From: Paracoccaceae bacterium | GTDB taxonomy: Bacteria > Pseudomonadota > Alphaproteobacteria > Rhodobacterales > Rhodobacteraceae | Length of the DNA stretch: 64,000 nt | Assembly: GCA_024639125.1 (NCBI GenBank) | Contig: JAHEJA010000004.1 | Span: 1 to 64,000, forward strand | Direction of reading: 5' to 3' | In this document: positions 16,043-21,258 of the stretch, one piece after another | Layout of the letters: each line of letters begins with the position of its first letter | How positions within the stretch are numbered: position 1 is the first letter of the stretch | Translations under genes and position numbers: made by a program | Notes under the pieces: model-generated | What the model saw: the letters and a program-made list of their open reading frames with translations, nothing else | The model's database searches: none | Told to the model about the DNA's origin: nothing

Positions 16043-17998
16043 TTAGACATCAAGTTCTTCGACGAATTTCGCATTTTCCTGGATGTATTGGAACCGTAAT
16101 TCTGGCTTTTTGCCCATTAATCTTTCGACCAAATCACCTGTTTCTCCGGGTTCATCTTCGTCGATGTTAACGCGGATCAATTTGCGTGATTTGGGGTGCA
16201 TTGTGGTTTCTTTTAGGTCTTTGGCATCCATTTCACCAAGTCCCTTAAAGCGTTGCACGTCGATTTTTCCTTTGCCGCCAAGCCCTTTTTCCAGCCACAA
16301 ATCTTTTTCGGCATCATTTGAAACATAAAGCCGTTTGGCCCCTTGGGTCAGGCGATAGAGCGGTGGACAGGCCAGATAAAGATGACCTTGGTCAATCAGA
16401 GGGCGCATTTGCGTAAAGAAGAACGTCATCAATAGCGCGGCAATATGCGCCCCGTCCACGTCCGCATCTGTCATGATGATAATTTTATCATAGCGCAAAT
16501 CGTCTACGTTGAATTTGGTGCCCATTCCGACGCCTAACGCTTCGCAGAGGTCGTTGATTTCGGCGTTTTGGCCTAATTTGTTTGACGCTGCGCCAAGCAC
16601 GTTAAGGATTTTACCTTTGAGCGGTAAGAGCGCTTGATTTTCGCGGTTCCGCGCGCCTTTGGCTGAGCCGCCCGCACTGTCACCTTCGACGATGAACAAT
16701 TCGGTGCCTTCACGGGATTTGGCCGTACAGTCGGTTAATTTACCCGGCAAACGTAGCTTTTTGGTTGCTGATTTGCGTTGGGTTTCTTTTTCTTGGCGAC
16801 GGCGCATCCGTTCTTCGGCGCGAAGGACCAAGAAATCGAGGATTGCGCCTGCTGACTTGGTATCTGCTGCGAGCCAGTTGTCAAAATGGTCACGGACAGA
16901 ATTTTCGACCAGTCGTGCGGCTTCGTTGGTGGCAAGGCGATCTTTTGTTTGACCAACAAATTCTGGCTCACGGATAAAGCAGCTGACCAAGGCGCACCCA
17001 CCCGTGGTCAGGTCATCCCGTGTGATGTCTTTGGCTTTGCGGTTGTTGACCAATTCGCCATAGGCACGGATGCCTTTCAGGATCGCGGCCCAAAATCCGG
17101 CCTCATGCGTGCCACCTTCGGGTGTTGGAACCGTGTTACAGTAGGATTGGATAAAACCGTCACGGGATGGTGTCCAATTGATGGCCCACTCTACTTTTCC
17201 AGGAAGATCAAAGCGTTCATTAAAATCAACAACGCCCGCAAAGGGGTTTTCTGAATAGGTCGTTGCCGTTCCAAGGGTTTCTTTTAAGTAATCAGAAAGC
17301 CCACCGGGAAAGTGGAATGTCGCTTCGGTTGGTGTTTCGCCATCGTCAATCGCGGTTTTCCAACGAATTTCCACGCCGCTGAACAAATAGGCTTTGGATC
17401 GGATGGATTTAAACAAACGAGCAGGTTTGAAACGGTGGCTTCCAAAAATTTCAGCATCCGCATGAAATGTCACAGTGGTTCCGCGACGGTTGGGGGCCGC
17501 GCCGATTTTCTCGACCGGACCTTGGGGAATGCCGCGTGAAAACCTTTGTTCATAGAGTTCTTTGTTACGCGCAACTTGCACGACCATTAAATCAGACAGC
17601 GCATTCACCACAGAGGCGCCAACCCCATGCAAGCCGCCGGATGTCTGATAGGCTTTGCCGCTAAATTTCCCACCCGCATGCAGCGTACACAAGATGACTT
17701 CGAGCGCTGATTTATCAGGGAACTTGGGGTGGGGATCAATGGGAATACCACGGCCATTGTCGCGCACAGTAAGTGAATAATCTTCGTGTAATTCGACTTC
17801 GATACGGTTCGCATGTCCTGCGACGGCTTCATCCATCGAGTTGTCTAAAACTTCGGCCACTAAATGGTGTAACGCACGCTCGTCTGTTCCGCCGATATAC
17901 ATCCCTGGGCGTTTGCGCACAGGTTCAAGACCTTCTAAAACTTCGATAGACGAGGCGTTATAGTCGTCTTGTTGTGTATTCGCGAGAAGATCGTTCAT
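16043..17998 (-). CDS. parE: DNA topoisomerase IV subunit B
   Basis: About 651 residues in GyrB/ParE order: GHKL ATPase domain with EVLDNSMDEAVAG (ATP and Mg binding), DNGRGIP and GGLHGVGASVVNALS, a transducer domain, then the TOPRIM domain with EGDSAGGSAKGARNR and DADVDGAH, and a C-terminal FKGLGEM. The shorter TOPRIM lacking the GyrB insert and the YIGGTDERALHHL segment mark it as ParE. It decatenates daughter chromosomes with ParC, which is not in the window. ATG 17998 (MNDLLAN) matches homologs; an ATG at 18010 is possible. It is divergent from the long gene-free region and reads away from it. Confidence 0.95.
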   Translation of the reverse strand: MNDLLANTQQDDYNASSIEVLEGLEPVRKRPGMYIGGTDERALHHLVAEVLDNSMDEAVAGHANRIEVELHEDYSLTVRDNGRGIPIDPHPKFPDKSALEVILCTLHAGGKFSGKAYQTSGGLHGVGASVVNALSDLMVVQVARNKELYEQRFSRGIPQGPVEKIGAAPNRRGTTVTFHADAEIFGSHRFKPARLFKSIRSKAYLFSGVEIRWKTAIDDGETPTEATFHFPGGLSDYLKETLGTATTYSENPFAGVVDFNERFDLPGKVEWAINWTPSRDGFIQSYCNTVPTPEGGTHEAGFWAAILKGIRAYGELVNNRKAKDITRDDLTTGGCALVSCFIREPEFVGQTKDRLATNEAARLVENSVRDHFDNWLAADTKSAGAILDFLVLRAEERMRRRQEKETQRKSATKKLRLPGKLTDCTAKSREGTELFIVEGDSAGGSAKGARNRENQALLPLKGKILNVLGAASNKLGQNAEINDLCEALGVGMGTKFNVDDLRYDKIIIMTDADVDGAHIAALLMTFFFTQMRPLIDQGHLYLACPPLYRLTQGAKRLYVSNDAEKDLWLEKGLGGKGKIDVQRFKGLGEMDAKDLKETTMHPKSRKLIRVNIDEDEPGETGDLVERLMGKKPELRFQYIQENAKFVEELDV

Positions 17999-18242
17999 GC
18001 AGCTGCCCATTACCTTTTTCTGTAATATGCCATTCTAATGCGACTAGGGGAAGGGGCAGAAGCAATGGAACCCGATTCGTATCCAACAAAATATTTTCTT
18101 CCGCCTTTAACATTTTAGTTAAAGCCTAGAACAGGATCTATGCAAATTGATCAATTTCTATACCTAAGTGTATGTAGTTGCGTAAATTAATGAGATTTTT
18201 ACTATCTCAATATGAGACGTCTTGATCATATTTTTTTGAAAG

Positions 18243-18263
18243 TTTTCCACAGGTTGTGGATAA
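18243..18263. promoter_or_regulatory. Inverted pair of DnaA-box-like sequences
   Basis: TTTTCCACA (18243-18251) on the plus strand and TTATCCACA on the minus strand (18255-18263) both fit the TTWTNCACA DnaA consensus, facing each other with three bases between. Upstream sequence is AT-rich. The same bases also form an imperfect hairpin, so the match could instead be an operator of a different regulator. Confidence 0.5.
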
Positions 18264-18498
18264 AATTTAGCAATAACGGGATGTTAAGCAATACAACTAC
18301 TAGAGTTCTCATAAATGCAAATAACAACTTGCAATCTTGTATCTTGATTGGGGTGGCTGCATGCCACAAGTTGTAACCACGACAAGCGAAACATTAACAA
18401 CGACCCTTAGTAAATACCTTACGAAAAGGTCACTCACGAAACACTTACTTCTCTCTCGCAAGAGACACAATATTCGCAGTGAACTCCACTCTCCCCTC

Positions 18499-18614
18499 GG
18501 ATGTTCTGTGAATTGTTTACCGCAAGGTGCCCGTCAAGCTCTTCGGTATTCGGACTGACCCAAGCAGAACCTGCATCCCCCCCCACTCCCATCTGCTTGG
18601 GTCAGCCCATTTTT
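18499..18614 (+). ncRNA. Candidate structured RNA: MATE-gene leader (attenuator) or small RNA with terminator
   Basis: A 17-pair hairpin with one mismatch (arms 18552-18568 and 18592-18608) is followed by TTTTT at 18610-18614; its 23-base loop contains eight consecutive C residues. Upstream, GGATG (18499-18503) and TTCTG (18504-18508) can pair with CATCC (18574-18578) and CAGAA (18565-18569), using bases of the terminator's left arm, so the two folds exclude each other. Between them lie ACC-GCAA-GGT (a GNRA-type tetraloop hairpin) and CTTCGG. The MATE start codon is 60 bases downstream. I do not recognise a known riboswitch or sRNA family. Confidence 0.5.
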
Positions 18615-18673
18615 CGTCTCGACCATTCGCCATTATTCTTGTTTGTAAAAACAACTTGGGGTAAGCGGACCCT

Positions 18674-21258
<2,585 letters not shown>

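Follow-up and report, generated by a model that had tools for sequence, protein, structure and literature searches.

A conserved C-rich-loop hairpin in the divergent parE-MATE intergenic region of Rhodobacteraceae, the candidate core of a clade-specific small RNA

The parE-MATE intergenic region and its predicted hairpin

The window, a stretch of 64,000 nucleotides from one contig of a Paracoccaceae bacterium, holds an intergenic region of 663 bases (18011-18673) between two divergently oriented genes. On the minus strand lies parE (16043-18010), encoding subunit B of DNA topoisomerase IV, for which Pfam shows gyrase B domains, the name parE over gyrB being the choice of the initial annotation and our own. 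On the plus strand lies a gene for a MATE efflux transporter (18674-20005; Pfam MatE, 9.6e-50), whose ATG at 18674 confirms a start that had been placed 60 bases downstream of the structured stretch. The open-frame list adds a plus-strand frame of 65 codons (18361-18558), ending inside the left arm of the hairpin described below, with no clear counterpart in the relatives G139, G200 and G222 and no Pfam match over the cut-off. The region also carries two facing sites, TTTTCCACAGG and TTGTGGATAA (18243-18264), which resemble DnaA boxes.

The main feature of the region is a plus-strand hairpin, in which a left arm (18552-18568) and a right arm (18592-18608) enclose a C-rich loop of 23 bases (18569-18591) bearing the motif UGCAUCCCCCCCCACUCCC (18572-18590), with a T-run, TTTTT (18610-18614), one base past the stem. 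The initial annotation had described a stem of 17 positions with one mismatch and a C-rich loop followed by TTTTT, and both descriptions hold: the fold has 16 pairs and an A.C mismatch (18554/18606), and the loop contains a run of eight C. Folding of 18540-18616 gave -27.7 kcal/mol, compared with a mean of -13.7 (sd 2.6) for shuffled sequences (z -5.4; 0/200 shuffles equally good), and each of six hairpins gave z values of -3.8 to -6.9 against single-base shuffles, at most 1/300 of which were as low. With the T-run one base after the stem, the window hairpin could itself be an intrinsic terminator; a simple terminator scan, which permits loops of 3-8 bases only, found none and left the hairpin unflagged, and a scan for the sigma-70 consensus over 17900-18800 found no promoter.

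Smaller elements were also predicted upstream of the main hairpin. A possible first hairpin with the C-rich loop ACTCTCCCCTC (18481-18506) is weaker, being suggested by a weak fold. Two further elements of the initial annotation stood as letters rather than as structures: the GCAA of a proposed GNRA-type tetraloop hairpin is present but its stem is a weak one of three pairs, and the proposed CTTCGG loop is present but has no stem of its own, both being absorbed into a single UACCG...CGGUA helix in the best fold.

Conservation, distribution and history of the hairpin

Judged by comparison with relatives, the hairpin is a real, conserved RNA element. Nine species of five genera carry such a hairpin at the matching position between the divergent parE and MATE genes: the window, G139, G200, G222, G320 (of the same genus as G139) and four genomes of the G351 genus. 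A BLAST search with 241 bases matched only the window's own genome among 61 searched; inspection of parE-upstream regions brought out like-looped hairpins, similarly placed, in G139, G200 and G222, and then in G320, the genus of G139 comprising three genomes of which one, G319, had no parE match and was left out. The intergenic region of the nine carrier species spans 612-723 bases; the start of the loop is 500-578 bases away from parE, and 82-123 bases separate the loop's end from the aligned MATE start.

The loop varies little among carriers. The core UGCAUCCCCCCACUCCC, counterpart of the window motif, is common to G139, G222 and G320, the window carrying two extra C, while the loop reads UGCAUUCCCCACCCCCC in G200 and UGCAUCCCACCCCUAAAAUCCC in the G351 genus. 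In the latter, the hairpin lies in the parE-MATE region of 4/4 genomes, all of which retain it nearly letter for letter, and it is the best-conserved stretch of the region (49/50 columns invariant in its two central windows, compared with 61% overall and 19-22 of 25 per window where MATE begins), these genomes not being four independent cases because L241 and L252 are nearly identical there. C-rich first hairpins also precede the main hairpin in G139, G320 and G222; G139 and G222 have two or three C-rich hairpins, and the window has one strong and one weak, possible one.

Stems were compared by holding the loop motif unpaired and registering the pairs outward from the loop. Relative to the window, the pairs altered on both sides numbered 11/15 in G222, 9/13 in G320, 8/13 in G200, 5/15 in G351 and 5/16 in G139, and 9, 7, 7, 9 and 5, respectively, when registered from the other end, such counts depending on the register because the stems carry insertions and have unequal lengths. 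With stems of unequal length, the comparison therefore speaks for retention of pairing rather than for a base-by-base history. The predicted stems are partly shared (window, G139 and G351) and partly rewritten, each arm of every stem still finding its partner in the fold, and the homology of the carrier hairpins rests on loop and place. In a registered alignment of three species, 5/16 pairs had changed on both sides, against 0-2 when slid, a number reached by 13/500 shuffles; one of five covariation measures (further pair types) did no better than shuffles (300/500). The comparison with relatives that the initial annotation had proposed showed loop and place kept in nine species, with stems largely rewritten and pairing intact.

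A covariance model, R1, was built from the window, G139 and G200 only. With it, G320, which lies outside the model within the genus of G139, scored 43.1 bits (E 2e-10). The score of G222, 23.7 bits (E 8e-5), is exceeded by those of the window and G200 on the wrong strand (33.8 and 25.8 bits). Over 394 family genomes (one per genus, stricter filters), R1 gave matches in 13 at E <= 0.01, of which 5 lie in the parE-MATE region: those of the window, G139 and G200, which are the model's own, and those of G222 and G351. The G351 match (E 4.1e-5 for that genome) was placed there by a whole-genome search blind to position. Distribution of the hairpin within the family is narrow. Matches in G285, G346, G161 and G210 were set aside as lying under open frames of 2,025-2,193 bases, as were those in G326 and G403, under open frames of 633 and 651 bases. 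A further match set aside, in G270 (L240 1501-1552), is a 17-pair hairpin of doubtful kinship whose C-rich loop is without UGCAU, between genes that by eye are aldehyde dehydrogenase-like and choline dehydrogenase-like. Applied to 53 loci chosen from 80 (named genomes), R1 gave one match up to E 10, at L085 (E 6.9).

Searches by pattern were also run. A multi-copy repeat was rejected because the loop pattern occurs once in the own genome, and a class-wide spread because a 16-base loop core (at most one mismatch), which does not match the window itself with its two more C, was found in 7/385 genomes against 6 for its backward control (our count). The pattern TGCATYCCCCN{0,6}CYCCC occurred in 38/295 family genomes, at 43 listed places compared with 15 for the backward control (our counts); it fell inside the parE-MATE region in only four genomes, most of the 43 places lying outside. 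Scanning for C-loop hairpins across 91 loci (90 upstream of parE, one upstream of MATE) produced 12 hits, 5 of them in carriers, that for G222 being its first hairpin and not its UGCAU hairpin; because the reversed control gave 9 hits, the scan alone is not specific.

A quick tree of 122 MATE rows puts all nine carriers in one group of 12; the enclosing fork has moderate support (84), and long branches among the carriers drew a warning from the program. The carrier label requires 2 changes on this tree, against a shuffled mean of 8.8 (0/500 as low); the change count of the parE tree was left unused because that tree is poorly resolved and contains duplicate unlabelled rows of four carriers. 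The remaining three members of the group are uncultured Rhodobacteraceae genomes (L058, L059 and L069), in which the parE-MATE region measures 221-222 bases and gives no R1 match. The hairpin was probably lost in these three, one gain and one loss being the simplest reading, and the RNA may have arisen once in a Rhodobacteraceae group and been lost in close relatives with a shrunken parE-MATE region.

A possible copy lies elsewhere, in G413, between frames named by eye as monothiol-glutaredoxin-like and rhodanese-like genes. This hairpin (a low score of 24.2 bits) has 9 pairs and the loop TGCATCCCCCCACTCC, equal to the first 16 of 17 loop bases, and directly after this UGCAU hairpin stands a second one of 13 pairs with a C-rich loop, GGAGCCCGAAGCG-ccactccccccattggca-CGCTTCGGGCTCC (L248 1461-1504, minus strand); the genome yielded no MATE of the carrier kind at E <= 1e-80. 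The likeness may be due to common descent or to chance, longer chance hairpins being found around pattern matches under long open frames, as at L150. If the G413 copy is homologous, it would represent the RNA separated from MATE.

Readings of the hairpin's function

Weighing predicted folds and their comparison, we favour, as probable, the reading that the hairpin is the core of a clade-specific small RNA with a C-rich loop that acts in trans. A small stand-alone regulatory RNA would be made from the plus strand of the parE-MATE intergenic region, its long stem presenting the single-stranded C-rich loop (UGCAU, C-tract and CUCCC) as a pairing site. The stem would serve as a mere scaffold, free to change, and the loop would be the functional part, base-pairing in trans with several mRNAs at G-rich sequences such as ribosome-binding sites. 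We favour this reading because a C-rich, G-poor loop on a scaffold stem is a design shared by RNAs whose pairing partners are G-rich stretches of mRNA. We infer the transcription of such an RNA, its size, its partners in Hfq or other proteins, its pairing and its regulation. A changing stem with a kept loop makes target pairing testable by compensatory mutation.

Two readings had been offered by the initial annotation, a free C-loop small RNA and a ligand- or translation-controlled leader with mutually exclusive hairpins. The former is the better supported: the loop is kept while the stem is rewritten with pairing intact, some relatives have a terminator of their own, and the G413 look-alike occurs without this MATE. 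As for the end of the transcript, the window hairpin with its T-run may terminate its own RNA. Separate terminators occur elsewhere, consisting in the G351 genus of a GC-rich hairpin and CTTTTTCTTG after the main hairpin and ahead of MATE, and in G139 of a GC-rich hairpin and a T-run, likewise ahead of MATE; no clear terminator was found in G222, G320 or G200. TTTT stands directly after the stem in G351 and G420, and no T-run of at least 4 does so in G222, G320, G200, G139, G421 or G422. A further hairpin, with CTCTCCTCCC, was seen in G139 alone, where it lies with the terminator after the main hairpin (L119 2636-2712), a stretch with a weak resemblance to suhB/mmgR (22.9 bits, E 0.48).

The main rival, a possible though rather doubtful reading, is a 5' leader or attenuator of MATE, in which the hairpin or a later terminator would halt most transcripts and a signal would allow read-through into the gene; the short product may then be incidental or, as with a leader-derived small RNA, have a second function. 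The rival stays in contention because MATE follows the hairpin in all nine carriers, the loop ending at the above distance from the aligned MATE start in 9/9 species; in G139 and the G351 genus a terminator separates the hairpin from MATE, and the carriers cluster on the MATE tree. Against it, divergent parE-MATE pairs in G007, G118, G248, G256 and G281 have no C-loop hairpin (0/5), the three uncultured genomes keep MATE without the hairpin, and the G413 look-alike sits in a genome that lacks such a MATE.

The leader with exclusive hairpins is not supported. The alternative stem on which it was drawn, pairing 18499-18508 with 18565-18578, is indeed present in the sequence (10 pairs, 4-base bulge) but is unfavourable, since forcing it costs 13.9 kcal/mol (-25.9 vs -39.8) and its pair probability in the full stretch is about 0. 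A truncated stretch that starts at 18480 and lacks the right arm does fold best with this stem, but one that takes in 150 bases ahead of the loop motif does not; inspection by eye of the last 90 bases of truncated folds from eight relatives showed no conserved alternative helix. The 65-codon frame ending in the stem is not conserved, and complementarity between the loop and the MATE start is inconsistent across the nine species, the duplexes being clearly better than shuffles only in G200 and G420 (z about -2.1), with z values of -1.2 to +0.3 for the remaining seven. That the loop masks the MATE start in cis was rejected on the same inconsistency, and a ligand riboswitch on the lack of an Rfam match and of a complex conserved core.

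A combination of the two functions, in which the MATE promoter would yield a terminated, trans-acting C-loop regulator and read-through would yield the pump, is in our judgement unlikely; if true, such a dual-function RNA would couple expression of the pump to a wider post-transcriptional response. On this reading, since the reverse complement of the loop, GGGAGUGGGGGGAUGCA, resembles a G-rich ribosome-binding stretch running into AUG, pairing with targets could mask their start codons.

That the stem instead presents the G-poor, C-rich loop for binding by Rho or by an RNA-binding protein seems improbable to us. Rho prefers C-rich, G-poor RNA, and conservation of the loop rather than the stem fits such a site, yet the loop, at about 20 bases, is short for a Rho site and intrinsic terminators are present there in several relatives. 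We give very little credence to a plain intrinsic terminator or a chance hairpin with no regulatory role: the T-runs after the stems of the window, G351 and G420 would suit a terminator, but they are missing from the other six carriers, the G351 genus and G139 have a better, separate terminator downstream, the plus strand upstream offers no conserved gene to terminate, just the unconserved 65-codon frame, and position, loop and pairing are kept over five genera despite largely rewritten stems. That the hairpin is structured DNA, or belongs to the opposite strand as part of the 5' region of parE with a G-rich loop, we scarcely credit at all. It does fold on both strands, and R1 scores the minus strand at 33.8 bits, but R1 (built on the plus strand) scores the plus strand at 64.4, the plus strand also bears the T-run and the separate terminators, and the loop starts 500-578 bases from parE.

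Comparison with known C-rich-loop RNAs

Rfam gave no match in the window, and lax searches of the carrier loci returned nothing over the gathering score at the hairpin; the comparison with Rfam that the initial annotation had suggested thus assigns it to no family at that score. A search of largely open literature brought up no RNA described in a parE-MATE region, so that an earlier mention is possible, and the main text of two surveys of Rhodobacteraceae small RNAs (PMC4809877, PMC5107571) contains neither parE nor topoisomerase.

Among Rhizobiales, hairpin RNAs with CCUCCUCCC keep their loops while their stems diverge (PMC3927594), and CcsR belongs to these CCUCCUCCC hairpin RNAs (PMC10253847). 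The hairpin resembles CcsR1-4/cuckoo (RF02791; SmelA075, SmelA099) in having a C-rich loop kept on a variable stem (PMC3927594, PMC10253847), but its loop is UGCAUCCCCCCCCACUCCC rather than CCUCCUCCC, and the window shows one main hairpin, with a weak possible second, rather than four alike. RF02791 and RF02344 (ar14) gave no match at the hairpin locus, and DUF1127 gave none in the 65-codon frame, the DUF1127 matches of the own genome lying elsewhere. At L003 of the same genome (G000:C35:8302-11403, minus strand), a DUF1127 gene precedes four hairpins in tandem, with loops of the CUCCUCCC type; by its layout this appears to be a CcaF1-CcsR/cuckoo-like locus, with weak Rfam matches of 29.6 and 35.1 bits, below the gathering score. 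We do not file the hairpin as CcsR/cuckoo because its loop differs, no DUF1127 gene adjoins it upstream and Rfam gave no match, and because a locus of this type is present at L003. A DUF1127-CcsR identity of the parE-MATE locus was rejected on the 65-codon frame, which has neither a DUF1127 match nor a clear counterpart in three relatives.

AbcR (ar15) carries the 6-base M1 motif, CUCCCA, in its first hairpin and the M2 motif, GUUCCC, between hairpins (PMC5461406). It had no Rfam match at the hairpin, and M2 was not seen by eye in 18480-18615. M1 does occur in the loops of the window (18586-18591) and G222, but is not kept in G139, G320, G200 or G351, and the hairpin is not filed under AbcR. 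In Caulobacter, an exposed C-rich loop of GsrN pairs with G-rich mRNA sequences (PMC5869019). The hairpin shares the exposed C-rich loop; GsrN-like RNAs outside the Caulobacteraceae, however, were sought and named beside general stress regulators (PMC5869019), whereas the hairpin adjoins parE and MATE.

The last comparison is with PmaR of Agrobacterium, a spoon-like, lineage-restricted RNA with a long stem, a C-rich end loop and validated targets (PMC6234868). Like PmaR, the hairpin has a long stable stem and, in its predicted fold, an end-standing single-stranded C-rich loop; both are restricted to one lineage, and the pairing region, a presumed one in the hairpin, is in both mostly C and not a plain anti-Shine-Dalgarno motif (PMC6234868). 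PmaR comes from another order, is likened here by description and not by sequence, and differs in that its targets are validated (PMC6234868). RNAs with C-rich loops are a recurring theme of riboregulation in Alphaproteobacteria, to which the hairpin would add one that stands outside the Rfam families.
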